DNA of 35,396 nucleotides from positions 2,617 through 38,012 of the forward strand of contig CASFXH010000029.1 of assembly GCA_949298575.1 (NCBI GenBank), written 5' to 3'. The notes beneath the pieces are model-generated. The model ran no database searches. It was not told the DNA's origin and was given only the letters and a program-made list of their open reading frames with translations. Shown one piece after another: positions 4,863 through 24,287 of the stretch (position 1 is the stretch's first letter; every line of letters begins with the position of its first letter). The position numbers and the translations under genes were made by a program. This DNA comes from an uncultured Parabacteroides sp. Lineage in GTDB: Bacteria > Bacteroidota > Bacteroidia > Bacteroidales > Tannerellaceae.

Positions 4863-4937
4863 GGGCGTTTAGCTCAGCTGGTTCAGAGCGTCTGCCTTAC
4901 AAGCAGAGGGTCGGCGGTTCGAATCCGTCAACGCCCA
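4863..4937 (+). tRNA. tRNA-Val (anticodon TAC), copy 1
   Basis: The cloverleaf can be read directly: acceptor GGGCGTT/AACGCCC, D-arm AGCTCAGCTGGTTCAGAGC, anticodon stem TCTGC/GCAGA around the loop CTTACAA (anticodon TAC, Val), and T-arm with GGTTCGAATCC. The discriminator base is A and the 3' CCA is not encoded. It is the first of three tandem copies. Confidence 0.97.
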
Positions 4938-4962
4938 CTTAAACAAATCCAACCGATCATTC

Positions 4963-5037
4963 GGGCGTTTAGCTCAGCTGGTTCAGAGCGTCTGCCTTAC
5001 AAGCAGAGGGTCGGCGGTTCGAATCCGTCAACGCCCA
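4963..5037 (+). tRNA. tRNA-Val (anticodon TAC), copy 2
   Basis: Identical in sequence to copy 1 across 75 bases, with the same TAC anticodon and no encoded CCA. It is separated from copy 1 by a 25-bp spacer that is almost the same as the next spacer, showing tandem duplication of a 100-bp unit. Confidence 0.97.
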
Positions 5038-5063
5038 CTCAAACAAATCCAACCGATCCATTC

Positions 5064-5138
5064 GGGCGTTTAGCTCAGCTGGTTCAGAGCGTCTGCCTTA
5101 CAAGCAGAGGGTCGGCGGTTCGAATCCGTCAACGCCCA
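5064..5138 (+). tRNA. tRNA-Val (anticodon TAC), copy 3
   Basis: Third identical 75-base copy with anticodon TAC. The sequence after it (CTCCCCAAACAAATTTC) diverges from the earlier spacers, marking the end of the duplicated block. No strong terminator hairpin is visible before the fbp promoter. Confidence 0.97.
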
Positions 5139-5252
5139 CTCCCCAAACAAATTTCAATCCATTTTTCCATTCTAAATGTGGCGAACGTCTGTAGCCGTCT
5201 TTTTACGCTTACGTGAACGCGAAGGGTTTTTCAACATGAAATCAGTGGAAAG

Positions 5253-10221: not shown

Positions 10222-12570
10222 TTATTTCTCGACCTGGAGTTGGATCGAGGGGTTCTCGTTCGCCTTGCGCCAGCCTCGAAGGACGACGGTGGCGGCGAGC
10301 AGCCCCGCGAGCGACAGGCCGGAGAGGAGGTAGAGCGCGAAGCCCAAGTGCACCCGCTCGGGGAAACTCATCAGCCAGCGATGGGCCACCGGCGGTACGG
10401 CCAGCAGGGCCAGGACGATCGCGGGCAGGCCGGCGCTCGCCAAGTCGAGGAGAAGCAGCCGCTCGATGTCCCAAGCCGTCGCGCCACAGATCTTACGCAC
10501 CATGATCTCCTTCCCCCGCCGGCGAATCTCGTCGGCCACGTAGCCCAGCAATCCCATCAGCGTGATGAGCGTCATGAAGAGCGCCGCCACGAGGGCCGAG
10601 TCGCGGAAGCGCGTCGTGTCGCGATACGACTTTTGGAGATCGTCGCGATAGGCGCGGACCACGATATCGTCGTCCGGAAAGAGGTCGCGCAGAGCGTGCT
10701 CGACTTTCGTCAGCGTCCGCGGGGTGATCTCGTGGAGGCGAAGGGTGAGGTAGGTGTCTGAGCCATCCATCTCGTCGCTCGTGGAGAGAAAGATAGGCGT
10801 GCGCTCGTCGAAGAGGCCACCGACCGTGAAGTCGTTGACGACGCCGCGGACCACGATGCCCAGCTGCCGGTGGACTTTCCCGATGGCCGACTCCTCCGTC
10901 CAACCCAGGGCTTGGAGGAATCGCTGGTTGACCAAGGCGGGCTCCGGCTCGCCACCCGAGCCGTCCAGGTTGTCGCCCATTTTCAACTGGAGGCCCAGGG
11001 TGGAAATGAACGCGCTATCGACCTGGCAATAACGGACGGTCGTGATCGACTCGCCCGTCGCGGGGTTGATCAGCGGGCGACCGTTGAAACCTTGCGGCAC
11101 GAAGGAGCCGGTATAGCAGACCCGCTCGACCTCCGGCAACCGCTCCAGCTCCTCGCGGGCCGTCCGCTGGTCGGAGGGGGAAGGGTCGCGCAAGGCGACA
11201 TAGACCAGGTTCGAGGGGTCGTAGCCCAGGTCTTTATCCAAGATCTTCCCGTATTGCAAGAGCACGACCGCGAGGAAAACCAGCATGAAGCTCGACGAGG
11301 CGATTTGCGCCCCCAGCAAAATCTTCCGCCCCCCCCGCCGGCTCAGGTCGTAGAAGCGGAAAACCCGCGCCGCGGGCACGGAGGCGAAAATCCGAGCCGG
11401 CAAAAGCCCCGCCAGCAAGACGACCAGCAGGATCGCCCCCAGCGAGACCGCCACTTGCCGCCCACTGAGGAAGAACGACAACGGGACGCCCGTCAGCGCC
11501 ACGATCCCATCCTCAGCCGCCGCGATCAGGAAAGCAGCCAGCGCCGCCGAGGCGACGACCAGCAGCGCCGTCTCCACCAGGCGGGTCCGGAAAATATCGC
11601 CGAAGGTGGCGCCGAAACATTTGTGGATGGCCATCACCCGCGCCCGCTTGGCAAGCGAGGAGACCGAGAGCATGACGTAGTTGAAAGCCGACGCCGCCAG
11701 GATGAGCGTCGCCAGGATGGAGAGCACGGCCAGCGTCTGCCGGATCTCCGGCTCGCTCACGTGCAGTTCGAGGACGGGCTTCAGGTAGGCGGCGTAGCTC
11801 ATGCCGCGCTCGCGCCAGCGGGCCAGGTCCATGTGCCGCTCCAGCAGCGGGGTCATTTCGCTGGCGATCCGCTCGGCCGAGGCGCCGGGACGGAGGCGCA
11901 CGTAGCCCGTGAAGCCGTCGCCCCCGTCCCAACGGGGCTGGCCGGTGAGGGCGATGGAATAAATGAAGTCGAACCGCAGGTGGCTGTTGGCGGGAATGTC
12001 GTCGAAGACGCCCGCGACGACGTAGCGTTCCCGCCGCGCCTTGTCGTCGTAGAGCGTTTGCCCCACCTCATCGCCCTCAGGGAACATCCGCTCGGCCAGC
12101 GAGCGGGAGATGAAAACCCGGTCTTTCACCATCAGCTCGCCCGTATTTCCTTTTAACACCTTCAAACCCAGCGTCCGGAAGAGCGCCGAGTCGGCATAGA
12201 CGGGCTCGACGACGTAGCGCCCCTCCGCGCCGAAGACGACCCGCTCCTCGCCCCGCAAATCCAACAGGCTACACCCCGCCTCGACCCCGGGCAGCTCCTC
12301 GGCCATCGTCGGCGCCAGGGGGCGAAACGTGTGTCCATAGTCGTTCACGTCGGGGTGGTCGCTCCCCAGGCCGTTCGTGAAGAGGCTCTGGATCTGGTAA
12401 ATCCGCTCCGCGTCGGGCAGGAAGCGGTCGTAACTCAAGTCGAACGAGACCCGCGCCAGGAGCACGAGCCCGATCGTCAGCCCCAAAGTCAGGGTGCAAA
12501 TCTTGATCAATCCATTGTCGTAGCCCCGGAGCAGGGTCCGGATGGCGTAGTAAATCGGTGTCGTTTTCAT
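10222..12570 (-). CDS. FtsX/MacB-type ABC transporter permease (orphan, sigma-54-driven)
   Basis: A 782-aa inner-membrane permease with two fused FtsX units. TM1 is at about 21-40, followed by a MacB_PCD-like periplasmic domain (about 45-270). TM2-4 lie at about 280-392 and TM5 at 417-440. A second periplasmic domain follows (about 445-650), then TM6-8 at about 657-764. The coupling-loop motif RGKEIMVRKICGATAWDI is typical of Bacteroidota FtsX permeases. MacB relatives use mechanotransmission to drive lipoprotein, peptide or antibiotic export from the periplasm. No ATPase, adaptor or TolC-type gene is adjacent, so it must pair with a distant ATPase or work otherwise. A sigma-54 promoter and paired palindromes lie upstream, matching those of the second permease at 21942. 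Substrate unknown. Confidence 0.9.
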   Translation of the reverse strand: MKTTPIYYAIRTLLRGYDNGLIKICTLTLGLTIGLVLLARVSFDLSYDRFLPDAERIYQIQSLFTNGLGSDHPDVNDYGHTFRPLAPTMAEELPGVEAGCSLLDLRGEERVVFGAEGRYVVEPVYADSALFRTLGLKVLKGNTGELMVKDRVFISRSLAERMFPEGDEVGQTLYDDKARRERYVVAGVFDDIPANSHLRFDFIYSIALTGQPRWDGGDGFTGYVRLRPGASAERIASEMTPLLERHMDLARWRERGMSYAAYLKPVLELHVSEPEIRQTLAVLSILATLILAASAFNYVMLSVSSLAKRARVMAIHKCFGATFGDIFRTRLVETALLVVASAALAAFLIAAAEDGIVALTGVPLSFFLSGRQVAVSLGAILLVVLLAGLLPARIFASVPAARVFRFYDLSRRGGRKILLGAQIASSSFMLVFLAVVLLQYGKILDKDLGYDPSNLVYVALRDPSPSDQRTAREELERLPEVERVCYTGSFVPQGFNGRPLINPATGESITTVRYCQVDSAFISTLGLQLKMGDNLDGSGGEPEPALVNQRFLQALGWTEESAIGKVHRQLGIVVRGVVNDFTVGGLFDERTPIFLSTSDEMDGSDTYLTLRLHEITPRTLTKVEHALRDLFPDDDIVVRAYRDDLQKSYRDTTRFRDSALVAALFMTLITLMGLLGYVADEIRRRGKEIMVRKICGATAWDIERLLLLDLASAGLPAIVLALLAVPPVAHRWLMSFPERVHLGFALYLLSGLSLAGLLAATVVLRGWRKANENPSIQLQVEK

Positions 12571-12617: not shown

Positions 12618-12636
12618 CGTGCAAATAGCGTGCCAA
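12618..12636 (-). promoter_or_regulatory. Sigma-54 (-24/-12) promoter of the first permease gene
   Basis: On the minus strand the sequence is TTGGCACGCTATTTGCACG, a near-perfect match to TGGCAC-N5-TTGCA with GG and GC separated by exactly 10 bases. From the -12 GC (12622-12621) to the ATG is 51 bases, the same as for the second permease. Sigma-54 promoters need an NtrC-family AAA+ activator, and a candidate enhancer lies upstream. Confidence 0.88.
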
Positions 12637-12689
12637 GATCCTTATTCCGCTTTAAAAGAAAACCTTATCGGAACAGGCGAAAGTCGGGA

Positions 12690-12729
12690 GTGTCCAAAAT
12701 TTTGACACCATTGTCCATTTTTTTGACAC
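12690..12729 (-). promoter_or_regulatory. Candidate enhancer (UAS): paired GTGTC-N9-GACAC palindromes
   Basis: The 40-bp element reads GTGTC-N9-GACAC, CA, TTGTC-N9-GACAC on the plus strand, with A/T-rich centres. Repeats start 21 bp apart, about two helical turns, so both dimers would bind one DNA face. It lies 55 bp upstream of the sigma-54 GG, a normal enhancer position. A matching element at the same spacing precedes the second permease. On the promoter-distal side it abuts TCCCG-g-CGGGA (12731-12741). Inferred to bind an NtrC-type regulator not encoded here. Confidence 0.8.
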
Positions 12730-12850
12730 TTCCCGGCGGGACGGGAGGATACGCGCGAGGGGCATGAACCGCCCGGCGATGACGCGGATTCTAGCTACAA
12801 AAAGCCCTTTTCTCTCTTTCGGCAGCCATAAAAGTGGGTTTTACGCAGTC

Positions 12851-13125
12851 GAAAATACATTCCCGCATCTTGCCCGGCGACTTTGGAGTGATCGAAAGCC
12901 ATTTCCGCAGCGCGCCGGGCCACTTCGGAGTGGTCGAAATACATTTCTAGATCTCGCCGGGCCACTTCGGAGTGATCGAAAATACATTTCCGCAGCTCGC
13001 CTGACTACTTTAAAGTGATCGAAAGCCATTCCCGCAGCGCACCGGGCCACTTCGGAGTGGTCGAAAATACATTTCCGCAGCTCGCCGGGCCACTTTAAAG
13101 TGTTTGGAGATACATTTCCGCAGCC
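12851..13125. repeat. Tandem array of 42/43-bp hairpin repeats (6 units plus a partial one)
   Basis: Units begin at 12851, 12894, 12936, 12978, 13021 and 13063, with a partial unit at 13107-13125. Each starts GAAAA/GAAAG, then ACATTTCCGCAG-like sequence, and ends in an inverted repeat such as CCACT-TCGG-AGTGG or CACTTTAAAGTG. Changes in the arms tend to keep the pairing. The period is close to four helical turns. It lies between the permease enhancer and the end of the response-regulator gene. There are no unique spacers, so it is not CRISPR. Confidence 0.88.
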
Positions 13126-13166: not shown

Positions 13167-14342
13167 CTAGCGCGAGCCCCCGTTATAGGCCAAAGCCATC
13201 ATCGTGATGTCGTCGCTCCGGTCGGCCTCGCCCACGAAAGCGTGGACGGCGGCGGCGACCCGCTCGACCATCGCTCGCGGGTCGAGGGCGCGCGCCTGTT
13301 CGCAGACCTCCAAGAGGCGGCGCTCGCCGAAGAGTTGGCGCTCGGGGTCGGTGGCCTCGCTCACGCCGTCGGTGTAGAGGAAGACGCGGTCGCCCGGGGC
13401 GAGTTGGATGACGCGCTCGCGGTAGCTGTCGTTGGGCATCACGCCGAGGGCCATGCCGCCCGAGAGGGGCAGGAGCTCAGCCGGGTGGCCTTGGAGGCAG
13501 GCGACGGGCTGGTTGTGGCCGGCGTCGCAATAGGTCAAGAGGCCCGTGCGGATGTTGAGGATGGCGTAGAAAGCGGTGACAAACATGCCGTTGACGCTCT
13601 CCTTGCAAAGCATCTCGTTGGCCTTGGCCATGCACGCGGCGGGCGAGAGCTTTGAGAGGGCGATGGTGCGGATCACGGTGCGGCTGATGGCCATGAAGAT
13701 AGCCGCCGGAACGCCCTTGTCGGAGACGTCGGCCACGGTGAGGCCCAGGTGGCAGTCGTCGATCATGAAGAAGTCATAAAAATCGCCCCCGACCGACTTG
13801 GCGGCCGTCATGCGGGCGTAGAGGTCGAAGAGCGAGACATATTCCGGGAAGGGCGGGAAGGTTTTCGGGAGGATGGATTGCTGGATCTCCTGGGCGACGG
13901 AGAGGTCGTGGCGGATGGCCTCCAACTGGTCGTGCTCGCGCTGGGCTTCCTTGACGAAGGCGATCTGCTTGACGGCCTTCTCGATCGTGCGCTCGAGGTC
14001 TTCCATGTCAATGGGCTTCGTGGCGAAGTCGAAGGCGCCCTCGTTCATGGCGACGCGGATGTTCTCCAGGTCGCCGTAGGCCGAGACGATGATGCAGCGC
14101 ATCGCCGGGTCGCGCATCTCGTTGATGCGGGCGAGGAGGGTCAGTCCGTCCATCTCGGGCATGTTGATGTCGGAGAGGATGATGTCGTAGTGGGGGCCGC
14201 GCAGGATGAGGTCGAGGGCCTCGACGCCGTCGTGCGCGAAAGTGAACTCGTATTCCCCCCGACGGATCTTCCGCCGGAAGTATTGGGTCAGCAGGGCTTC
14301 GAGATCCTGCTCGTCGTCTACGCTTAATATTCTGATAGGCAT
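13167..14342 (-). CDS. Response regulator with SpoIIE/PP2C phosphatase output
   Basis: A 391-aa cytoplasmic protein. An N-terminal receiver domain (1-120) has acidic residues Asp9/Asp10, phospho-acceptor Asp58 (ILSDINMPEMDG), Ser87 and Lys109 (FATKPID). A coiled-coil linker spans about 120-155. A SpoIIE-type PP2C Ser/Thr phosphatase domain spans about 165-390, with the metal-binding Asp residues in GGDFYDFF (185-192), VADVSDKG (203-210), YTDGVSEAT and SDDITMMAL. Family members (RsbU/RssB-like) are switched on by phosphorylation and dephosphorylate an anti-sigma antagonist or another regulator. No STAS or anti-sigma gene is nearby, so the target is unknown. It is the last gene of a five-gene operon, 20 bp after the soluble kinase, and that kinase is its likely phosphodonor. 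Confidence 0.92.
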   Translation of the reverse strand: MPIRILSVDDEQDLEALLTQYFRRKIRRGEYEFTFAHDGVEALDLILRGPHYDIILSDINMPEMDGLTLLARINEMRDPAMRCIIVSAYGDLENIRVAMNEGAFDFATKPIDMEDLERTIEKAVKQIAFVKEAQREHDQLEAIRHDLSVAQEIQQSILPKTFPPFPEYVSLFDLYARMTAAKSVGGDFYDFFMIDDCHLGLTVADVSDKGVPAAIFMAISRTVIRTIALSKLSPAACMAKANEMLCKESVNGMFVTAFYAILNIRTGLLTYCDAGHNQPVACLQGHPAELLPLSGGMALGVMPNDSYRERVIQLAPGDRVFLYTDGVSEATDPERQLFGERRLLEVCEQARALDPRAMVERVAAAVHAFVGEADRSDDITMMALAYNGGSR

Positions 14343-14362
14343 GATGCTTGTTTTTTATCGTT

Positions 14363-15229
14363 TTAAGAAACAGGGGCCAGGAGAGGGATGACGAGGGTCA
14401 CCCGCGTGAAGCGTCCCTCCTCGGACTCGACCTCGACGCGGCCGCGGTGCTTGTCTTCGATGATGCTCCGCGTGATAGAAAGGCCCAGCCCCGTGCCCTC
14501 GCCGGCGGGCTTGGTGGTGAAGAAGGCCTTGAACATTTGCCGGCGCACTTCCTCGCTCATGCCCGTGCCGTTGTCCTCGATGGCGAGGCGCAACTCGCCG
14601 TCGGTGGCGAGGAGGCGGATCGTGATGGTCGGGCGGTAGTCGGGCGGGGCCACCCGCGAACGCGCGTAAACGGCGTAGCACGCGTTGCTCATGACGTTCA
14701 AGACGGCCCGGCTGTAGTCCTGCGGCACCATGCGGACCTTGGGCAGGTCGGGGGCGTAATCCTCGCGGATCGAGATGTTGAAGCCCTTATGGCTGGCCCG
14801 GAGGGAATGGTAGGCCAGGTGGACGTATTCCTTGACGAGGGGCGCCGGGTCCGTCTCGACCAGCTTCTCGCAATCCTGCCCGCGGGTATAGAGCAAGATG
14901 CCCCGGATGATGTCGAGCGCGCGGCAGCCGTGCGACTCGATTTTCTGGAGATTGCCCTCGAGGTCGGTCATGATCTCTTCCGCCTCCTCCTCGAAGTCGG
15001 CGTGGCGGGCGCGCTCGGCGGGGGCCATGCGTCGCTTCTCCTCGTCGATGAGGGCGATGAGCTCTTTCACCAGCTTGACCGACAGTTTGCTGAAGTTGAT
15101 GACGAAATTCAGGGGGTTCTGGATCTCGTGGGCGATGCCGGCGCTCAAGGTGCCGAGGGAGGAGAGCTTCTCCATCCGCTCGATTTGCGCTTTCAGCCGG
15201 TCGATGTCTTTCTTCTCTTCAGTAGCCAT
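14363..15229 (-). CDS. Soluble sensor histidine kinase (HisKA/HATPase)
   Basis: A 288-aa kinase with no membrane segment or recognisable sensor domain. A short coiled coil (about 5-25) leads directly into the H-box LSAGIAHEIQNPLNF with phospho-acceptor His34. The HATPase domain has an N-box (AVLNVMSNACYAVY), G1 (IEDNGTGMSEE), an F-box (KAFFTTKPAGEGTG) and G2 (GLGLSI). It would autophosphorylate and pass phosphate to the SpoIIE response regulator encoded 20 bp downstream. Lacking its own sensor, it probably receives its signal from the kinase-like membrane protein encoded just upstream (6-bp gap), perhaps as a heterodimer; that is inference. The start at 15229 (MATEEKK) is the natural ATG. Confidence 0.92.
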   Translation of the reverse strand: MATEEKKDIDRLKAQIERMEKLSSLGTLSAGIAHEIQNPLNFVINFSKLSVKLVKELIALIDEEKRRMAPAERARHADFEEEAEEIMTDLEGNLQKIESHGCRALDIIRGILLYTRGQDCEKLVETDPAPLVKEYVHLAYHSLRASHKGFNISIREDYAPDLPKVRMVPQDYSRAVLNVMSNACYAVYARSRVAPPDYRPTITIRLLATDGELRLAIEDNGTGMSEEVRRQMFKAFFTTKPAGEGTGLGLSITRSIIEDKHRGRVEVESEEGRFTRVTLVIPLLAPVS

Positions 15230-15235
15230 GCGTAA

Positions 15236-16387
15236 TTATGATTGATGGGATTCCTCTTTGTTGTTCTGCTTGGGGTCCTTGTCCATCAGGAAGAGGGGGA
15301 CGCGGACGGTCATTTCGGTATATTCGCCCTTCACGCTGTCGACGGCGATGGTCCCGCGGTGGTTCTGCACGATCTCGCGGCAGAGGTAAAGGCCGATGCC
15401 GGCGGCCTCGCTGGTCGTCTTGGTGGTGAAGAAGGGGGCGAAAATCTTATCTTGGAGGGCCTTGTCGATGCCCGTGCCGTTGTCGCGGACGCGGATCTCC
15501 AGCTCTTCGCCCTCCACCCGGCGCAAGGAGAGGCGGATCACCGGCTCGAACTCGACATTCTCGCGCTTGCGCGACAAGGCGTAGATGGCGTTGCCCAGGA
15601 GATTGATCAAGACTTTCAGCATCTGGTCGACGTCCAAGGGGAGCATGAGCGCGAGGTTGAGGGGCTCGAAGTGGATCGAGATGCCTTTTTCCTGGATCTC
15701 GGCGCCATACTGCTTGTTGATTTTCTTCAACGCCACCCGACAGAGGTCGTTGACGTTGGTGAGGGCCAGGTTGCTGCGGTGATCCTTGAGGAGTTCCTCC
15801 ATCGCCTTCACGATGCGGACGGTGTTGTAGCCATGATCCGAGATCTTGGAGAGGTTGCTCTCCATCAGGCCGACGATCTCCATCGAGTCCTCGTAGGTCT
15901 CGCGGTCGAGGCGGTCCTTCTGGCTCTCCAGGTTTTCCCTCAACTCCTTGCCCAGACCGGAGGTCAGGGTGGCGAAATTGTTGATGTAGTTGAGGGGATT
16001 GAGGATCCGGTCGACGAGACCTTTGGTCAGCTGCTCGATGGTGGCCGTCCGCTCGCGGCGGACCAGCTCGTCTTGCGCCTCGCCCAGGTCTTTCAGGGCG
16101 TTGGCGAGCTTGACGGATTCCTCTTGGATGGCGTCCCGCTCTTGGCGGATCGCCGCGGTGCGTTGCTCGATTTCCCGCACCATCGTCTCCTTGATCTTTA
16201 GCTGCCGTTGGAGCATTACTTTCACCACCTGCATGATAAGGAGGACGGGGACGATTCCAGAGGTCCACCCGTATCGCTCCGTCACGAAGAGCACGCCGAT
16301 GGCGACCAGCCCGATCGTCGTCACGTGTTCGATCCGGCGGATCCGGGTGCTCAACTGTTTGATATCGTTGTTCAGGTCGTCGATCAT
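15236..16387 (-). CDS. Membrane histidine-kinase-like protein lacking the phospho-acceptor His
   Basis: A 383-aa protein with two closely spaced membrane helices (about 23-40 and 43-60), a long coiled coil (about 65-118), a HisKA-like dimerisation segment and an HATPase domain. In the H-box position LTKGLVDRILNPLNYINNF aligns with the neighbour's LSAGIAHEIQNPLNFVINF, so the expected His is Asp126 and the following Glu is Arg127. The ATP-binding N (LINLLGNAIYAL), G1 (VRDNGTGIDK), F (APFFTTK) and G2 (AAGIGLYL) boxes look intact. It is therefore probably a pseudokinase or a signal relay that may bind ATP and dimerise with the adjacent kinase. It follows the barrel gene by 6 bp in the same operon. 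Confidence 0.88.
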   Translation of the reverse strand: MIDDLNNDIKQLSTRIRRIEHVTTIGLVAIGVLFVTERYGWTSGIVPVLLIMQVVKVMLQRQLKIKETMVREIEQRTAAIRQERDAIQEESVKLANALKDLGEAQDELVRRERTATIEQLTKGLVDRILNPLNYINNFATLTSGLGKELRENLESQKDRLDRETYEDSMEIVGLMESNLSKISDHGYNTVRIVKAMEELLKDHRSNLALTNVNDLCRVALKKINKQYGAEIQEKGISIHFEPLNLALMLPLDVDQMLKVLINLLGNAIYALSRKRENVEFEPVIRLSLRRVEGEELEIRVRDNGTGIDKALQDKIFAPFFTTKTTSEAAGIGLYLCREIVQNHRGTIAVDSVKGEYTEMTVRVPLFLMDKDPKQNNKEESHQS

Positions 16388-16393
16388 GGCTTA

Positions 16394-18193
16394 TCAGAAA
16401 TTGAGATTCACGCCGCCCATCACGCTAAAGCCTTGCGCGGGATAGCCATAATCCAGCTCGTAGTCCTGGAACAGCAGGTTGCGCAGCTTCACGTAGACGC
16501 CGAATAGGGAATTAAACGAATACGCGCCGGTGACGCTCAGCTCGTTGATGTTGTCCATCTTGATCACGCCCCCTTGATTCAGGTCCGTATAGCGGTCGGT
16601 CGCCAAGTAATAGTTGAGGTCAATCGACAGGCGGTCGATCGGACGGATGGTCGCACCGGCCGTGATTTCCACCTTCGGCTTTCCCCAGGCGTGCTCCAAC
16701 TCCTCGTCGGGGTTCGCGCCGTCCCAGGAGTTCCCCCACGAGGCGGTCCAGTGGTTATAAACGCCCCTCACACGGATGTCGAAAAGTTGTTGATAACTAT
16801 ATTTCAACTCCGCCCCGGCGTAGAGACGCTTCGTGTCGATGTCGTCCATGCCCCGGATCAGGTTCGCGAAGCCTCCTCGCGCGCCATTATCCGGCAGGAA
16901 AAGCACGTCGCTGTCCGTGATCTTATACCCGGCGAAGAGGTCGAACCAGAAACATGGGGCGACCCCGCTCCGGATTCCCACCTGCCCGTCCAACCAATTG
17001 AACGAGGGGAGCAACTCGCGGGTCGGGTCGATGTAGCGCTTCGTGAGCGAAGTCTCGTAGGCGCTGTTGGAATAGAGCTTGCCCGTCGCGGTGAGGTAGA
17101 GTTGGGTCCGCGGCGCCACTTCCACGTCGGCCGAGACGTTCGGGGCGGCGGAGAACTTGCTGTTCTCCCCGGTCGAGAACATCACTTGCGCGCCCAGCTT
17201 GACGTGCCAATTGTCGCCCTCCACCCGATAGTAAGGCGAAAGGACCACCTCCGCGTGGTTCTCGAAGGAGCAGAAATACCACGAGCCGTCGCTGGCTTGA
17301 CGCTCAGCGGGCAGGGCGTAGTTGAAATATTCCACTTGCCCCGCGAGGCCGAGCCGCATCGTCTCGTTGAACGCCTTGTTCACGTCGAAGCGGAAGTCGA
17401 TCGTGTTTTCCGTCGGGCCATCCGCGGCTGCGGCGATCCCGTATTTGTGGGAGAAGCGGATATAATCCAAGTCGAACAAATAGCCGAACGAGGCGCCTTC
17501 CTTGGATTCCACCCCGACGTTCGCCTTGATCGTCTGGTTCACCTGATTGGTCTCCTGGTCCACCAGCGCCAGTCGATCCGCGAGGGGGAGCGAGGAAGAC
17601 AAATCTATCGGCAAGCCATAATAGTTGAAGGCGGAATAGCCGTAGAGGACGCCCATCTTCAGGCTGAGCTGGTCGAAGTGGTGGGCGTAATTCAGCCCGC
17701 CGTAGTTGTCGTTGATCTTTTGCTTCGCTTCCAAGTCCTCGCCTTGGAGGTAAGAGACGTCGCCATGCGTCGACCGGTGCGAATACCAGATGTTGAGCCG
17801 GTCTTTCGCCGTGTTCAGGATGTGGTAGCCCGCGTCGCCGTCGATGTTCAGGTAGTTACCGATGCCGAAGTTCAGGTAGCCCCGACGCCCCTCGTGCGGG
17901 ACGGTGGTCATGAGGTTGCCTGAGGGGAGGACGCTGATCCGCGGGGTCAGCGTGATGGGCGCGGCGAACTCCGAGTAGTCGATCGGGACTTCGCGCGCTT
18001 CCGGTTCCTTGACCGTGGGCAGGGTATTGACCTTGTTGGCGTCTTGCACGGTCGGGTCGTACTCGCGTTCGAGGGTCAGCTCGCGCTCCAACGCTTTCTT
18101 TCCCGTTGTCAGGTCTTCTTGGGCGTTCGCGGCGCAGGCGATCCCCAGGAGCGCGATCACGCCCAGCGTCTTATTGTTGTATCGCATTTTCAT
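16394..18193 (-). CDS. Outer-membrane beta-barrel protein (TonB-receptor-like, no plug)
   Basis: A 599-aa exported protein. The signal peptide spans about residues 1-24 with cleavage at ANA-Q. A short polar N-terminal region (LEREYDPTVQDANKVNTLP) is followed by alternating amphipathic strands rich in Tyr/Phe/Trp down to a terminal aromatic residue (GGVNLNF), as barrels need for BAM recognition. No Cys lipobox or carboxypeptidase-like/plug domain is visible. The role is unknown; it may be a porin-like or structural outer-membrane partner of the large TPR protein. The start overlaps the TPR stop by 17 bp (ATG at 18187) or 23 bp (ATG at 18193), so translation is probably coupled. The downstream kinase-like gene is 6 bp away. 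Confidence 0.85.
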   Translation of the reverse strand: MKMRYNNKTLGVIALLGIACAANAQEDLTTGKKALERELTLEREYDPTVQDANKVNTLPTVKEPEAREVPIDYSEFAAPITLTPRISVLPSGNLMTTVPHEGRRGYLNFGIGNYLNIDGDAGYHILNTAKDRLNIWYSHRSTHGDVSYLQGEDLEAKQKINDNYGGLNYAHHFDQLSLKMGVLYGYSAFNYYGLPIDLSSSLPLADRLALVDQETNQVNQTIKANVGVESKEGASFGYLFDLDYIRFSHKYGIAAAADGPTENTIDFRFDVNKAFNETMRLGLAGQVEYFNYALPAERQASDGSWYFCSFENHAEVVLSPYYRVEGDNWHVKLGAQVMFSTGENSKFSAAPNVSADVEVAPRTQLYLTATGKLYSNSAYETSLTKRYIDPTRELLPSFNWLDGQVGIRSGVAPCFWFDLFAGYKITDSDVLFLPDNGARGGFANLIRGMDDIDTKRLYAGAELKYSYQQLFDIRVRGVYNHWTASWGNSWDGANPDEELEHAWGKPKVEITAGATIRPIDRLSIDLNYYLATDRYTDLNQGGVIKMDNINELSVTGAYSFNSLFGVYVKLRNLLFQDYELDYGYPAQGFSVMGGVNLNF

Positions 18194-21100
18194 CGCTTTC
18201 TTGTTTTTGATTGATTTTAGAGAGTCTTTCCTCGATCATGCCATCGATCTCCTCGTTGCCTTTATAGTTGTTGCTCAGGCTGACCAGGTATTGGCGGGCC
18301 TGGAAGTCGTCGCCTTGTTTCATGTAGACATCGGCCAGGAGGATGAAGCCGCGGGCCAGCCAGTATTGATGGGGCGTCCCCTTCTCGATGAAGTCCATCA
18401 GGAGGGTTTCCGCGTCTTGGGTCTTGCCTTGGTCGAAGTAGAGCTGGGCCAGTTGGTATTTCGCCTCGGCGCCTTGGGCGGTCCGGGTATCCTCGCTGAG
18501 GACTTTCAGGTCGGCGATGGCCTTGTCGCGCTCACCCTGTTCCAAATAAACTTTCGCGCGGATATAGCGGGCTTCGATGGCCAGCTCGGGCGAGAGCTTG
18601 GCGTCGGCCAGCAGCTCGTCGGCGGCGGTGAGGGCCTGCCCGGATTCGTTCAGGTTGACGGCGCAGCGCATGATGCCGAGCTTCGCGGCTTGCTGGTTGT
18701 CGGGATCATTGGCGAGGGTCCGCAGGGACTTGAAGGTCTCGAGCGCGGCGGCGTAATCCTCCGCCATGTATTCAATCTCCGCTTTCCGGGCGGTCGATTC
18801 TTCCAGGAACTTGACGTCGCGGCTCGCCAGGACTTCCTCGTAAAGGCGCTTGGCCTCCGTGTAATTCTTCTCGGCGAACGCGATGTTGGCCAGATAGAAG
18901 TTGGCGTTCGAGCGGAAGGCGCCTTGAGGATACTCGGCGAGGTAATTGCTCAGGCTCTGCCGGGCTCTCGCGTTGTCGCCCCGGAGGAACGTCTTCTCCG
19001 CCGCCAGGTAGGTCAGCGAGTCTTGCTCGCTCGCGTCGATGTGGATGCCACCCAAGGAGTTGACGTAAGTGGCGTAGGCGTCGACCTCATCCAGATCGAT
19101 GTAGATGGACTTCAAGTCTTGCAAGGCCACCTTCGCCTCGTCGCTGCCCCGGTAGTCGTTGATGACTCGCTTGTAGGCCTCGATCGCTTTCTCGGGTTGG
19201 TTCTCGTTGTAATAAATCAGACCCAACTGCACACCACCTTTGGGCGCCAGGCTCCCGTTGGGGTAGCGGGCGACCAGCTCGCCGAAAGCCTCGGCCGCCT
19301 TGGCGTTGTTCTCCAAGAGGACATAGGCACGGCCTTTCTCGTAGAGGGCGTCGTCGGCATATTGGGATTGGGGATAGTCGCGGATCAATTGGTCCATGAC
19401 ACGAATCTTGCCCGTATAGTCTTTTTGCAAGCCCATCACGAAACCTTTCTGGTAGAGGGCGTAGTCGGCGGCCGAAGGTTGCAGGCCGACGGCCCGGTTG
19501 TAGTTCTCCTCGGCGGCGGCGAACTGGCGGTCGTTGAAGAGGCAGTCGCCTATGCGGTTATAGGCGTCGGCCACGGCGGGCTGCCGCTGGTCGCGCTCCT
19601 GGTTGACGTATTGGCGGAAGCGGTTGAGCGCCTCGTCGTAGTCTTTCCGCTTGAAATAATTATAGCCTAAATTATAATACGCCAAAGGATCGGCCTGGAC
19701 GCCCCGTTGCCGCGCGTGGGCAAGGTAGGTCCGGAAGCCGTCGATCGAGCGCTCGTAATCGTCCATGCGGTAATCGACCTCGGCCCGCCAGAAGTAGGCG
19801 TCGTCGCGCGAGGCGGGATCGTAGCTGCCCATCGCGATCGTCTGCTCGAACCAGTCGCGGGCGGCGGGCAGGTCGTTGTTGGCGAAGGCTTGCGTCCCCA
19901 GCTGGAAGAGGATCTTTTGTTTCGCCTCCAGGATTTTCTCGCTGGGGCGGTTGATCTTGTTGATCGAGGCCAGCGCCGCCTCGTAGTTGCGGGTGGTCAA
20001 GTAGACCTCGATGAGGTAGTCGCCCACCCGGTCGGCGTAGCGGGAGTTGGGGAAATCGTTCAGGAACTCCTCGAAGATCGTCACCGACTCGCCGAAGCCC
20101 GTGAAGGCCGTCTCGTGGATCAGCAGGGCGTAGTTGTACATCGCCGCCTCGCGGACTTGGGGGTCGGCCTCGTTGGTGGAGGCGATCTCGAAGGCCAGGC
20201 GGGCGTTGTTCTTATCGTCGAGCCGGAGGTAGCTTTGCCCCAAATAGAGGTAGGCGTTCTGGGCGAGGGCGTCGTCCTCGTGGACGGTCTGGGCGAGGGC
20301 TTTCACGGCGTTGCGATAGTCGCCCTGGCCATAGTGGCAGACGCCGAGGAGGTAGAGATCGTCGCGGCGAGGCGCCTCGGTGGTCGTCTCGGTATAGCGC
20401 TTGAGCATCTCCAAAGCCTCGCGTTCGCTACCTTTATAATAATAGGCGTTGCCCATGACGCGATAGACCTCGCTGTTCTCGGGCGAGCCGGGGTAGTCGT
20501 CGAGCAGGCTTTGCCCCTCGCGCAACACTTGGTCGTATTTCTTTTGGGTAAAATGAATCTGCGCCGTGTAATAGCGGGCCCGCTGGCTGAACTCGGGATG
20601 GCCGTCGAGGCGGGCGAAGCCTTCGAGGGCCGCGTCGTAGTCGCCCGTCGCGTAGTCGATGTAAGCCAAGTAATAAGCCGAGGCCTCTCCATAGGTCTCG
20701 CCGGCGGCGGCCACGCGGTCGAAGTAGCCTCGCGCCCGTTCCGTCTCGCCCGTTTGCAGCAGGGCGTAGGCCAGGCGATAGGCGTAGGCTTCTTGCTGGG
20801 CGGGGGCGAGAAGGTCGATGTCGGCGCGCTCGAACCAATGGATGGCCGCGTCGTAGTCGGCCCGCTCGAAATGCCCGGAGCCGATGAGGAAAGCGGCCTC
20901 GTCGGCGTGGCGCGTCGCGGGATGACGTTCCAAGAAAGCGGTCAGCGCCTCCGTAGCGTCGGGCCGACCTTGCTCGTAGGCCACGACGGCGAGCATGTAA
21001 TCGGCTTCCTCGATAAGGTTCGCGTCGGTAGCCCGCGCCTTGAAGGCGGTGAGCTTGTCGGCGCAACCCGCGTAATCTTTCAACTCAAACAATTCCCGGC

Positions 21101-21203
21101 CCTCGACGAACAGCCGATCGCCCTCCGCGAACGGGTAGGCGCGCTGCGCTTCCGCCAGGTGGCAACCCAGCGCCAGGCATAGGGGAAGAAGTATCCTTTT
21201 CAT
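18171..21203 (-). CDS. Large periplasmic TPR protein
   Basis: A 1010-aa protein with a signal peptide (about 1-19, MKRILLPLCLALGCHLAEA) followed by some twenty degenerate tetratricopeptide repeats over nearly the whole length. Examples are ADYDAAIHWFERADI, NNARLAFEIASTNEADP and YNLGYNYFKRKDYDEALNRFRQY. Repeats of the YbgF/Ypt type suggest a periplasmic scaffold, perhaps attached to the outer membrane through the barrel whose gene overlaps its end. No catalytic motif is seen. It is the first gene of the operon TPR, barrel, kinase-like, kinase, response regulator. A possible -7 box (TAAGTTCG, minus strand, 21243-21250) lies about 40 bp upstream. Function unknown; co-translation points to a shared complex or signal. 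Confidence 0.88.
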   Translation of the reverse strand: MKRILLPLCLALGCHLAEAQRAYPFAEGDRLFVEGRELFELKDYAGCADKLTAFKARATDANLIEEADYMLAVVAYEQGRPDATEALTAFLERHPATRHADEAAFLIGSGHFERADYDAAIHWFERADIDLLAPAQQEAYAYRLAYALLQTGETERARGYFDRVAAAGETYGEASAYYLAYIDYATGDYDAALEGFARLDGHPEFSQRARYYTAQIHFTQKKYDQVLREGQSLLDDYPGSPENSEVYRVMGNAYYYKGSEREALEMLKRYTETTTEAPRRDDLYLLGVCHYGQGDYRNAVKALAQTVHEDDALAQNAYLYLGQSYLRLDDKNNARLAFEIASTNEADPQVREAAMYNYALLIHETAFTGFGESVTIFEEFLNDFPNSRYADRVGDYLIEVYLTTRNYEAALASINKINRPSEKILEAKQKILFQLGTQAFANNDLPAARDWFEQTIAMGSYDPASRDDAYFWRAEVDYRMDDYERSIDGFRTYLAHARQRGVQADPLAYYNLGYNYFKRKDYDEALNRFRQYVNQERDQRQPAVADAYNRIGDCLFNDRQFAAAEENYNRAVGLQPSAADYALYQKGFVMGLQKDYTGKIRVMDQLIRDYPQSQYADDALYEKGRAYVLLENNAKAAEAFGELVARYPNGSLAPKGGVQLGLIYYNENQPEKAIEAYKRVINDYRGSDEAKVALQDLKSIYIDLDEVDAYATYVNSLGGIHIDASEQDSLTYLAAEKTFLRGDNARARQSLSNYLAEYPQGAFRSNANFYLANIAFAEKNYTEAKRLYEEVLASRDVKFLEESTARKAEIEYMAEDYAAALETFKSLRTLANDPDNQQAAKLGIMRCAVNLNESGQALTAADELLADAKLSPELAIEARYIRAKVYLEQGERDKAIADLKVLSEDTRTAQGAEAKYQLAQLYFDQGKTQDAETLLMDFIEKGTPHQYWLARGFILLADVYMKQGDDFQARQYLVSLSNNYKGNEEIDGMIEERLSKINQKQESDENAIQQ

Positions 21204-21250: not shown

Positions 21251-21312
21251 CATAAAAACTCCCATTCGGCTGACATCTCGCGGCGCCTTTTTCGGAGAAG
21301 GGCGGAAATGGC

Positions 21313-21767
21313 TTCCGAACCCCCGGAAAAGTTCTCGCGAAGCCGCGCCGAGCCTTCCGAACCCCCGGAAGGGTTCCCGCGGAGCCGCGACAAGGTTTCC
21401 GAACCCCCGGAAGGGTTCTCGCGGAGCCGCGCAAAGCTTCCGAACCCCCGGAAGGGTTCCCGCGGAGTCGCGGCAAGGTTTCCGAACCCCCGGAAGGGTT
21501 CCCGCGGAGCCGCACAAAGCTTCCGAACCCCCGGAAGGGTTCCCGCGGAGCCGCGCAAAGCTTCCGAACCCCCGGAAGGGTTCTCGCGGAGCCGCGCCGA
21601 GGCTTCCGGAGTCCGGAAAGGTTCCCGCGGAGCCGCGCCGAGGCTTCCGGAGTCCGGAAAGGTTCCCGCGGAGCCGCGCCGAGGCTTCCGGAGTCCGGAA
21701 AGGTTCTCGCGGAGTCGCGGCAAGGCTTCCGGAGTCCGGAAGGGTTCTCGCGGAGCCGCGACAAGGT
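21313..21767. repeat. Tandem array of 41/42-bp double-hairpin repeats (11 units)
   Basis: Units begin at 21313, 21355, 21397, 21438, 21480, 21521, 21562, 21604, 21645, 21686 and 21727. Each has a first inverted repeat (TTCCG-n-CGGAA; in units 8-11 the perfect TTCCGG-agt-CCGGAA) and a second one (CGCGG-ag-CCGCG). Units 1-7 share one version of the first arm and units 8-11 another, indicating block amplification. It ends exactly where the inverted repeat next to the second permease enhancer begins (21768). Not CRISPR: no unique spacers. The reading frames across it are repeat artefacts. Confidence 0.92.
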
Positions 21768-21822
21768 TTCCCGAAGCGGGAAGTGTCTAAAAATTGGACA
21801 CCACTGTCTAATTTTTTGACAC
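21768..21822 (+). promoter_or_regulatory. Candidate enhancer (UAS) of the second permease, with flanking inverted repeat
   Basis: TTCCCG-aag-CGGGAA (21768-21782) is followed by the 40-bp element GTGTC-N9-GACAC, CA, CTGTC-N9-GACAC (21783-21822). The element agrees with the first enhancer at about 35 of 41 positions when both are read on the plus strand, and likewise carries two palindromes 21 bp apart. It ends 55 bp before the sigma-54 GG, exactly as in the first case. Confidence 0.82.
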
Positions 21823-21875
21823 TCCGTTTTCCCTCGTGATCACATAACCTTTTGGCTTTTAACAAGAAAAAGATT

Positions 21876-21893
21876 TTGGCATGATATTTGCTT
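21876..21893 (+). promoter_or_regulatory. Sigma-54 (-24/-12) promoter of the second permease gene
   Basis: TTGGCATGATATTTGCTT has GG (21878-21879) and GC (21890-21891) separated by exactly 10 bases, matching TGGCAY-N5-TTGCW. The C of the -12 GC is 51 bases from the ATG at 21942, identical to the first permease gene. Confidence 0.87.
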
Positions 21894-21941: not shown

Positions 21942-24287
21942 ATGAAAGCTCTTTTGAAAGGTTTTTGGGCCTTATGCCGCCGGTATAGCGTCGCCATGAC
22001 GCTCAATCTGTTGGGGCTCGCCGTCGCCTTCACCGCCTTCCTGGTGATCATGGCGCGCTGGGAATTTGAGCGGAATTTCGACCGGGAAACGCCCAACGCG
22101 GAGCGGATCTTCCGCCTCGACACGCGGATGCCCGAGCGGGGGCAGGCCGCCATCGTCTGTCGCCCGCTGGCCGAGTTGTTCATCCAATCGTCGCCCCACA
22201 TCGAGGCGGGGGCCTTGCGCTATATCGCATGGCTCAGCTCTGATTTCACGGTCGACGACGCGCTCGGCGGGCGGCATGTCTATCAGGAACACGTCGTTTC
22301 CGTCACACCCGACTTCCCGCGGGTGTTCGGCTTCGAGATGCTGGAAGGGTCGATGGACGCCCTCACGGAAGACAACCAGTTGCTGCTGCCCGAAAGCCTC
22401 GCCCACAAACTGTTCGGCGAGACGCCGGCCCTCGGGCGACGCCTGGACACGGACTTGAAAAACGCACCCGTCGAGAACGGGATCTATTATGTCGGAGGCG
22501 TTTACCGGGATTTTCCCGCCAACTCGTCGGTCAACAACGTCATCTATCGCTCCCTGGGCGACGAGAACAAGACGGCGTGGGACACGTGGAACTACTCCTT
22601 TTACCTCTTGCTCGACGACCCCTCGTCGGCCGAGGGCTTGGTCGACAATTTTAAGGCTTATATCCAGGGAATGGAGCTGGATTTCGACCAAGAAGACGCG
22701 GATGAGATCGTCATCACGCCCCTCCGCGAGTTGCACTACGCCGGCGATATCATCTACGACCACATTCCTAAGATCTCCCGGTCGACACTCTTCCTCCTCT
22801 TCTCCATCGCGTGGGTTATCCTGCTCATCGCGGCGATCAATTACACCAACTTCAGCACCGCCCTCTCCCCCTTGCGGACGAAGAGCCTCAACATCCAACG
22901 GGTCTTGGGCGGGACGCTGGGCGAGCTGCGGTGGGGGCTTTTGGTGGAAGCCATGCTCGTCTCGCTCACGGCCTATGTGATCGCGTTGCTGCTCGTGGAT
23001 CATCTTTGGAAAACCGGTTTCAGCGACTTCGTGGCTGTCTCGCTCAACTTGGCCGACCATGTGGGGTTGGCGTTGGGCACGGGTGTCGTCACCTTGGCGC
23101 TGGGGCTGCTCGCGGGGCTCTATCCCGCGTTCCACATGACCTCCTTCCAACCCGCCTTGGCGCTGAAAGGCTCGTTCGGCCTCTCCCCCGCCGGCCACCG
23201 GTTGCGGATGGCGCTGATGGGAATCCAGTTTGTCGCCTCGTTCGCCCTGATCATCGGGGCCTTGTTCATGGCCTTGCAAAACCGCTATACCCGCGTCGCC
23301 TCGCTGGGTTACGACAAAGACGCGTTGATCGTCGCGGAGATGAGCGAGACGATGCGAAAGGCGGAACGAAGTGTCCAAAGCGACTTGTCGCGGATCGCGG
23401 GCGTGACGGGCGTGACGTTCGCGACAGAGGCGATCTCTTGGGCTGACGACTACATGCATTGGGGCCGGGGCTATAAAGACGGCACGATCGACTTCGACCT
23501 CATCCCAGTCTATCCTGATTTCCTCCGCGTACTGGACATCCCCGTCAAGGAAGGTCGCGATTTCATGGAATCGGACAAGGCGACGGGCGCCTTCATTTTC
23601 AACGAGACCGCCGCCAAGCGTTACCACCTCGCGGCGGGCGACAAGGTGGGCGACATGCCCGTCGTCGGGATCATGCCCGACATCCATTACGCTTCTCTAC
23701 GCAAGCGCATCGCGCCGATGGCTTTCCTCGTGAAAGATTGGGTCTCGTCGAATATGCTTTACATCCGCGCCAAGCCGGAAGCCGACCTCTTCGCCGTCCG
23801 CTCGCGAGTGGAAGAAGCCCTTCACGCGATCGACCCCGCCTATCCGCTCAACCTCCGCTTCTACGACGAGGTGATCGAGATGAGCTACCAGTCGGAGCGG
23901 CAATTGAGCTCGATGATCTTGCTCTTCAGCCTCCTGGCGGTCTTCATCTCGATGGTTGGCGTCTTCGGCCTGGTGGTCTTCGACAGCGAATATAAGCGGA
24001 AAGAGATCGGCGTGCGGAAAGTAATGGGCGCGACGACGGGCGAGATTCTCCTTCAGTTCAACAAGATCTACGTGCGGCTGCTGGTCGTCAGCTTCGTCAT
24101 CGCGGCGCCCCTCGCGTGGTATGCCGTGCGGGAGTGGCTCCAGCATTTCGCCTACAAGACGCCGATGTACGTGTGGGTCTATGCCGTGGCGTTTCTCCTC
24201 GTGGCGCTGATCACCGTCGCCACCGTGACGTTCCAGAACTGGCGGGCGGCGAACGCGAATCCCGTCGATTGCCTCAAGTCGGAATAA
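21942..24287 (+). CDS. FtsX/MacB-type ABC transporter permease (orphan, sigma-54-driven)
   Basis: A 781-aa inner-membrane permease of the same type and length as the one at 10222 but well diverged from it. TM1 is at about 17-37, a periplasmic MacB_PCD-like domain follows, TM2-5 lie at about 280-445, a second periplasmic domain follows, and TM6-8 lie at about 656-762. The coupling-loop motif KRKEIGVRKVMGATTGEIL and terminal NWRAANANPVDCLKSE are typical of Bacteroidota FtsX permeases. No ATPase gene is adjacent. Its sigma-54 promoter, paired-palindrome enhancer and distances are the same as those of the first permease, so the two are probably co-regulated and may form a heteromeric transporter. 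It ends 15 bp from the convergent porin gene. Substrate unknown; envelope stress or peptide efflux is inference. Confidence 0.9.
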   Translation: MKALLKGFWALCRRYSVAMTLNLLGLAVAFTAFLVIMARWEFERNFDRETPNAERIFRLDTRMPERGQAAIVCRPLAELFIQSSPHIEAGALRYIAWLSSDFTVDDALGGRHVYQEHVVSVTPDFPRVFGFEMLEGSMDALTEDNQLLLPESLAHKLFGETPALGRRLDTDLKNAPVENGIYYVGGVYRDFPANSSVNNVIYRSLGDENKTAWDTWNYSFYLLLDDPSSAEGLVDNFKAYIQGMELDFDQEDADEIVITPLRELHYAGDIIYDHIPKISRSTLFLLFSIAWVILLIAAINYTNFSTALSPLRTKSLNIQRVLGGTLGELRWGLLVEAMLVSLTAYVIALLLVDHLWKTGFSDFVAVSLNLADHVGLALGTGVVTLALGLLAGLYPAFHMTSFQPALALKGSFGLSPAGHRLRMALMGIQFVASFALIIGALFMALQNRYTRVASLGYDKDALIVAEMSETMRKAERSVQSDLSRIAGVTGVTFATEAISWADDYMHWGRGYKDGTIDFDLIPVYPDFLRVLDIPVKEGRDFMESDKATGAFIFNETAAKRYHLAAGDKVGDMPVVGIMPDIHYASLRKRIAPMAFLVKDWVSSNMLYIRAKPEADLFAVRSRVEEALHAIDPAYPLNLRFYDEVIEMSYQSERQLSSMILLFSLLAVFISMVGVFGLVVFDSEYKRKEIGVRKVMGATTGEILLQFNKIYVRLLVVSFVIAAPLAWYAVREWLQHFAYKTPMYVWVYAVAFLLVALITVATVTFQNWRAANANPVDCLKSE

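Follow-up and report, generated by a model that had tools for sequence, protein, structure and literature searches.

Two permease genes with a shared promoter layout

The window, a stretch of 35,396 nucleotides from an uncultured Parabacteroides sp. (contig C29:2617-38012), carries two genes for FtsX/MacB-type ABC permeases, here called A and B. Each is preceded by a predicted sigma-54 core and, further upstream, by a pair of palindromes that we describe as a putative enhancer. No MacB-type ATPase was found beside either permease in the window when the ATPases C2a and C2b were used as queries (tblastn, E 1e-5). The features of the two promoters are as follows:

10222..12570, minus strand: permease A, a 782-aa FtsX/MacB-type ABC permease (Pfam MacB_PCD and FtsX matches)
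12621..12635, minus strand: sigma-54 core of promoter A, TGGCACGCTATTTGC
12655..12667, minus strand: IHF-like place in spacer A, TAAGGTTTTCTTT, a weak copy with 2 mismatches to YAANNNNTTGATW by reading
12690..12729, minus strand: putative enhancer A, 40 bp, TGTC-N9-GACA palindromes at 12712-12728 and 12691-12707, 21 bp apart
21783..21822, plus strand: putative enhancer B, 40 bp, palindromes at 21784-21800 and 21805-21821, 21 bp apart
21845..21857, plus strand: IHF-like place in spacer B, TAACCTTTTGGCT, a weak copy with 2 mismatches to YAANNNNTTGATW by reading
21877..21891, plus strand: sigma-54 core of promoter B, TGGCATGATATTTGC
21942..24287, plus strand: permease B, a 781-aa FtsX/MacB-type ABC permease (Pfam MacB_PCD and FtsX matches)

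Read in the direction of the gene, promoter A runs from GTGTCAAAAAAATGGACAATGGTGTCAAAATTTTGGACAC through 54 bases to the core TGGCACGCTATTTGC, and promoter B from GTGTCTAAAAATTGGACACCACTGTCTAATTTTTTGACAC through 54 bases to TGGCATGATATTTGC; in both, counting on from the T of the core, the first G of the GG is the 55th base after the element. The layout claimed for both promoters in the original prediction (a GG-N10-GC core, a palindrome period of 21 bp and 55 bp from element to GG) is correct, as are the coordinates, and the two permeases have indeed diverged strongly, with 25% identity over an alignment of 804 columns. By reading, the spacers and leaders of the two promoters are unalike. Two sequence patterns needed revision: the palindromes had been given as GTGTC-N9-GACAC-type, and all contain TGTC-N9-GACA, but the full GTGTC and GACAC ends are missing in two of the four palindromes of the window, and the search string suggested for the core, TGGC-N8-TTGC, should read TGGC-N7-TTGC.

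Between the permeases (13167-21203) lies a signalling cluster that encodes a SpoIIE-type phosphatase with a receiver domain, a TPR protein of 1010 aa, two histidine-kinase-like proteins and a protein of 599 aa that matches no Pfam family. Elsewhere in the window, three tandem 100-bp units (4863-5163) resemble a tRNA gene, with CTTACAA read as the anticodon loop.

Further copies in the genome

Across the whole genome, a 3.05-Mb assembly of 88 contigs, the pattern of the palindrome pair matched 36 places with up to 3 mismatches (4 with none, none with 1, 4 with 2 and 28 with 3), compared to 5 places for the reversed pattern. The four perfect TGTC-N9-GACA pairs are those of promoters A and B and two others, at C2:104724 and C7:88031, and in all four a sigma-54 core of the form GG-N10-GC stands at 55 bp from the pair. 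Further copies of the element had been predicted, and these two have identical geometry. As all four perfect pairs have the core at 55 bp and the reversed control in the family gave no match, the combination of pair and core is not a product of chance. The sigma factor that the original prediction relies on is also encoded: a profile search of the genome identified rpoN at C12:21051-21527 (Sigma54_DBD, 183.6 bits), together with ten Sigma54_activat matches, all over the cut-off, of which five are strong (215-232 bits) and five weak (21-32 bits).

Tandem arrays of quite different sequences but a common period of 41-42 bp lie near the enhancers. This period was found in 11 of 12 arrays with a period of 30-60 in 168 kb of this genome, and its constancy among unrelated units is strange. 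An array lies 10 to about 120 bp upstream of three of the four enhancers, and the fourth enhancer is about 130 bp from a contig end. Arrays of 41-42-bp period are located at the following positions:

Window: 12853-13124 and 21310-21771
L057: 8301-8459 and 8531-8714
L058: 6570-6805
L059: 6045-6282
L060: 8266-8623
L061: 12696-12929
L062: 10045-10226
L067: 4201-4401

Predicted target genes

Two orphan permeases had been proposed as the target, and both do lie behind the element, but the other two loci were missed. The C2 site precedes a lone gene for a 226-aa LolD/MacB-type ATPase, 70.6% identical to a second such ATPase of the genome, while the C7 site is followed by genes for OEP/TolC, an HlyD adaptor and a 779-aa permease in operon-like order. 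Because these two copies stand before a TolC-HlyD-permease operon and an ATPase, the target appears to be a dispersed exporter rather than two orphan permeases. Together with permeases A and B, the four loci, united by a common promoter design, supply every kind of part of a MacAB-TolC-like tripartite exporter: three FtsX/MacB_PCD permeases, one HlyD adaptor, one MacB/LolD-type ATPase and one OEP channel. These four unlinked genes or operons could together encode a complete pump through the envelope. We infer that their products form one exporter machine and, from genomic context alone, that one ATPase may be shared among the permeases.

Similar genes follow the element across genomes. Among 123 distinct sites from the fetched loci (pair and core together allowed up to 3 mismatches, and 10 loci were left out), the first downstream gene is of exporter type in 115 (permease in 49, TolC in 42 and ATPase in 24); five of the remaining sites have a first gene that matches none of 20 query proteins, and at three no ORF was found. 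The parts can also be contiguous. TolC, HlyD, permease and ATPase stand in one row in Prevotella cerevisiae (locus L113), and a permease-ATPase-permease row is found in loci L080 and L093, the second permease of L093 having its own element. This contiguity suggests that the scattered loci are fragments of a once intact exporter operon and that these fragments bear control elements. A named strain of Parabacteroides distasonis has a site of the TolC type (L107).

Candidate activator and paralogous modules

An activator of the NtrC family had been predicted, and at the level of sequence relatives do show an NtrC-type regulator in linkage with exporter operons that carry the element. In this genome the regulator is encoded at C13:47926-49272, with a membrane kinase directly downstream, and the pair lies apart from all four targets. 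Response_reg, Sigma54_activat and HTH_8 all match it over their cut-offs. The classical sigma-54 contact motif is GAFTGA, and the C13 regulator reads GAFTDA there (by reading). Its kinase, in which a HisKA match falls below the cut-off, has hydrophobic spans at 8-31 and 26-54 and therefore almost no periplasmic loop, which is the layout of intramembrane-sensing kinases.

The best copies of the C13 regulator in relatives have 58-67% identity and other copies 50% or less, with a second copy at 55-57% in three genomes, so orthology is not perfectly clean. In Prevotella (L094) and Parabacteroides An277 (L102), an orthologue stands divergent to a TolC operon that has the element. In a raw count of 20 orthologue loci, nine contain the exporter's TolC/HlyD genes (49-82% identity), two only permease and ATPase matches, and nine no exporter gene nearby, one of these last being 12 kb only; permease matches in these loci are 27-33% identical and in part unspecific. 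The recognition helix is SRQTLYNK in 17 of the 18 tails compared from the 20 loci, and TRQTLYNK in the remaining one. Co-occurrence is only moderate: the element is present in 25 of 48 genomes with an orthologue versus 2 of 11 without (one-sided P = 0.04), or in 15 of 48 versus 0 of 11 (P = 0.03) on the stricter basis of the 43 free-gap matches described below, where 'without' means no listed match of at least 55%, so that fragments in broken assemblies may be missed. The two genomes with the element and without the regulator, G011 and G018, are 87% and 83% complete. On this evidence, the C13 regulator with its kinase is most likely the activator of the TGTC pairs.

The same sigma-54 regulon could instead have its TGTC pairs bound by C67, C26b or an orphan C7 AAA+ protein, which we consider unlikely. 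There are five strong sigma-54 activators in the genome, and none was found adjoining a target there. The C67 operon also includes TolC, and in locus L088 an element-driven permease is followed, some 3 kb further on, by an orphan AAA+ activator of C7 type (78%). Behind the TolC gene on C67 lies a third regulator-kinase pair (L061 4340-4700), with a different, ACTGT...ACAGT-like palindrome and the core-like GGCACGCCTTTTGT upstream. The C26b-type modules, with their NtrC-type regulator and kinase, carry GTGCG-N4-CGCAC pairs and lie at these positions:

L059 (contig C26): 8600-8960
L060 (contig C2): 4800-5200

In these modules GTGCG-N4-CGCAC occurs twice, 21 bp apart, upstream of a permease gene divergent from the C26b regulator and also upstream of a second ATPase-permease operon (C2:45032), and the distance from pair centre to GG is 75 and 74 bp, compared to 75.5 bp for the TGTC pairs. 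Of the 123 family genomes, 7 contain this pair pattern, with 8 matches in all and none for the control; seven of the matches have a gap of 55 or 56 to the core T and the eighth one of 67, and C26b orthologues sit in six of the eight loci (2-3 kb loci, own genome included). Since C26b has its own operator with near-identical geometry, the TGTC operator should belong to a different regulator, and the comparison points to operator choice being set by the regulator and geometry by the machinery. In the loci examined, no C26b or C67 orthologue lies beside the TGTC element, bar a 35% C67 match on a Pirellulaceae contig that we judged to be chance, whereas C13 orthologues repeatedly adjoin it.

A wider generalization, offered tentatively, is that Bacteroidales may possess insulated sigma-54 modules for FtsX/MacB-type exporters, in which every two-component pair is matched to a palindrome pair of its own (TGTC-N9-GACA with the C13 pair and GTGCG-N4-CGCAC with the C26b pair) and all keep to a shared rigid architecture, with the palindromes 21 bp apart and their centre 74-75.5 bp before the -24 GG. 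Exporter operons might then scatter and their parts yet stay co-expressed, so that one ATPase, adaptor and channel would serve several interchangeable permeases.

Conservation of the geometry

A scan of named species genomes (84,980) identified 51 stretches with the element, mostly from Parabacteroides and Tannerella(ceae), with two from Prevotella, some from other Bacteroidales and 10 others, the last having gaps outside 53-56, namely 42, 51, 52 and 63-66 (58 distinct sites listed). Ten loci (L078, L082, L091, L092, L097, L100, L106, L108, L109 and L111) were left out of the 123-site counts, which narrows the gap range too: six are from other phyla, three are labelled only 'bacterium' and one Bacteroidetes (L108; gap 64, with a permease match of 24% about 3 kb off).

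With the gap left free from 40 to 70, the 123 family genomes gave 43 matches in 28 genomes, and the reversed pattern gave none; as read from the coordinates, the gap is 55 in 34 matches, 56 in 5, 54 in 3 and 53 in 1. Freeing both spacings (palindrome spacing 0-30, core gap 40-70, last core base dropped) gave 98 matches in 53 of the 123 genomes, again with none for the reversed pattern. Four bases separate the palindromes in 96 of the 98 and five in one, and the remaining match is a triple whose middle copy is imperfect; the core gap is 55 in 63, 56 in 11, 54 in 12, 53 in 11 and 52 in 1. Among the 123 fetched-locus sites the gap is 55 in 101, a figure biased upward because some searches fixed the gap at 55, a bias that the two free-gap searches (43 and 98 matches) do not share; in all of these counts the sites are drawn from related genomes and are not independent. 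With the gap fixed, 29 of 38 genus genomes match when 3 mismatches are allowed (control, 0) and 7 of 392 genomes of the order at up to 2 mismatches, two of them outside the family, which indicates a regulon mainly of this family with scattered members elsewhere. The last base of the -12 box varies over the 123 sites (C in 71, A in 31, T in 17 and G in 4), and a strict GG-N10-GC search consequently misses at least 4 in 10 such sites. Two other arrangements were also seen: a triple palindrome site with a 21-bp period (G037:C139:19422-19549) and seven elements within 37 kb of one genome (G041:C2:1567201-1604359), presumably a permease cluster.

Two further parts of the originally proposed layout did not extend beyond the window. 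The distance from GC to ATG, thought to be constant, has 50 bases between in both A and B, but 72 in one of the other own promoters and 16 or 28 in the other, where two ATGs are possible; over 115 sites it varies widely and is not a fixed part of the layout. The CCCG-n-CGGG inverted repeat on the far side is present at both window promoters, where that of promoter B borders the 41-bp tandem array, but at only 2 of 123 sites, both being these same promoters, and was ruled out as a regulatory part. A 5-bp-stem repeat of some kind lies upstream in 43 of the 123 sites, compared to a shuffle mean of 23.

The constancy of the core gap bears on whether the palindromes are an enhancer at all. Inverted repeats of this size are common operators, and they could bind a repressor, or several factors, with the GG-GC core being fortuitous; we regard this as very improbable, as a repressor site would normally overlap the promoter or lie directly next to it, whereas the core lies at 55 bp in all four own sites and at 52-56 in all 98 family matches with the gap free from 40 to 70, and rpoN and activators are present in the genome. 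Still less credible is recent copying of one promoter without selection on geometry, for although exporter genes multiply and could bring promoters along, A and B look unalike in spacers and leaders and their proteins are 25% identical, and these distances are seen again in 53 of 123 genomes and at the operator of the paralogue.

The spacer and a proposed mechanism

When the 123 spacers are aligned on the core, YAANNNNTTGATW starts 32 bases before it with a mean of 2.5 mismatches in 9, compared to about 4-7 at most other positions, and with at most 1 mismatch in 34 sites. On the opposite strand an IHF-like signal starts at 20 (mean 2.9 mismatches; 21 sites), and a weaker signal is found at 35 (mean 3.4 mismatches; 11 sites). 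Taking the best match on both strands, 64 of the 123 spacers have at most 1 mismatch, compared to 15.4 in letter shuffles of the spacers. In this genome the motif stands at that same position in A and B with 2 mismatches (by reading), and it has about 4 at C2 and C7. That IHF takes part is plausible where the family is concerned, but the case is weak for this genome.

We consider it probable that the element is the enhancer, joined to a sigma-54 promoter, of a small four-locus regulon for one tripartite ABC exporter, with the C13 regulator and kinase as its likely activator. The kinase, with its two close hydrophobic spans, would sense envelope stress or exporter cargo and phosphorylate the regulator, dimers of which would fill both palindromes on one face of the DNA, two helical turns apart. 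An AAA+ ring would assemble, the spacer would bend (a step that an IHF-like protein would aid in many relatives), and sigma-54 polymerase would be opened by the ring at the core. Sharing of one ATPase, adaptor and outer-membrane channel by three permeases would give a broader cargo range. In this scheme the sequences themselves show the element with its geometry and the genes behind it, the presence of rpoN, the conservation and the regulator's linkage in relatives, and from these we propose the binding, the activation, the part of IHF, the signal and the sharing of components.

Sequence comparison yields a predicted sigma-54 regulon of a dispersed tripartite ABC exporter, with an unusually rigid enhancer geometry and a well-supported candidate activator. 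For a regulon of this kind in gut commensals it puts forward a concrete operator and geometry together with a sensor pair and a list of targets, and it makes the function of orphan FtsX/MacB permeases testable. Enhancers are a kind of element known for action at variable distance, and the question raised is why one spacing should hold across much of the family and in a paralogue with another operator.

Relation to known systems

Sigma-54 control of FtsX-like (COG0577) permeases in Bacteroidia was predicted in 2025 and called first evidence (PMC12316311). That prediction concerns the same target gene class and sigma factor as ours; an operator, a fixed geometry, a dispersed exporter and a cognate two-component system are all absent from the accessible portion of the paper. 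Within the open-access literature, we found no description of this operator, its geometry or a cognate two-component system. The Bacteroides BT2792-2795 bile-tolerance system, termed an efflux pump in the available text of PMC10994844, was set aside as a relative, as BT2793-2795 are counted as RND-type in that of PMC11078008.

GlrR/GlrK (QseF/QseE) of E. coli combines an NtrC-type regulator, sigma-54 and help from IHF in envelope homeostasis (PMC6075780, accessible sections), and GlrR/QseF sites of enterobacteria are TGTC-N10-GACA (PMC8745638, likewise). By reading, three such sites stand before glmY of K-12. The regulator type, sigma factor and TGTC/GACA half-sites are alike in the two systems, as the help from IHF would be, but the GlrR sites have N10 and are three and widely spaced, whereas those described here have N9 and are two in helical phase, and GlrR targets an sRNA and rpoE rather than exporter genes. 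A GlrR orthologue is excluded as the activator by the score of the C13 regulator in the curated GlrR model (274.8 bits, cut-off 763), by its 35% identity to GlrR and by its different recognition helix; given the last two, the half-site resemblance looks convergent.

MacAB-TolC and the darobactin exporter DarBCD resemble the predicted exporter in having a permease, HlyD-type adaptor, LolD/MacB-type ATPase and TolC. They differ in that the permeases here have a length of about 780 aa and the parts come from four separate loci, and scores in the Dar, MacB and ADOP models lie below the curated NCBIfam cut-offs (DarB, 44.6-74.5 of 700 bits; DarC, 211 of 450; DarD, 295 of 375). Lastly, enhancers of NtrC/NifA type consist of paired upstream palindromes and a -24/-12 core with an IHF site between them; what sets the present element apart from these is a spacing that is nearly invariant across the family and in a paralogue with another operator.
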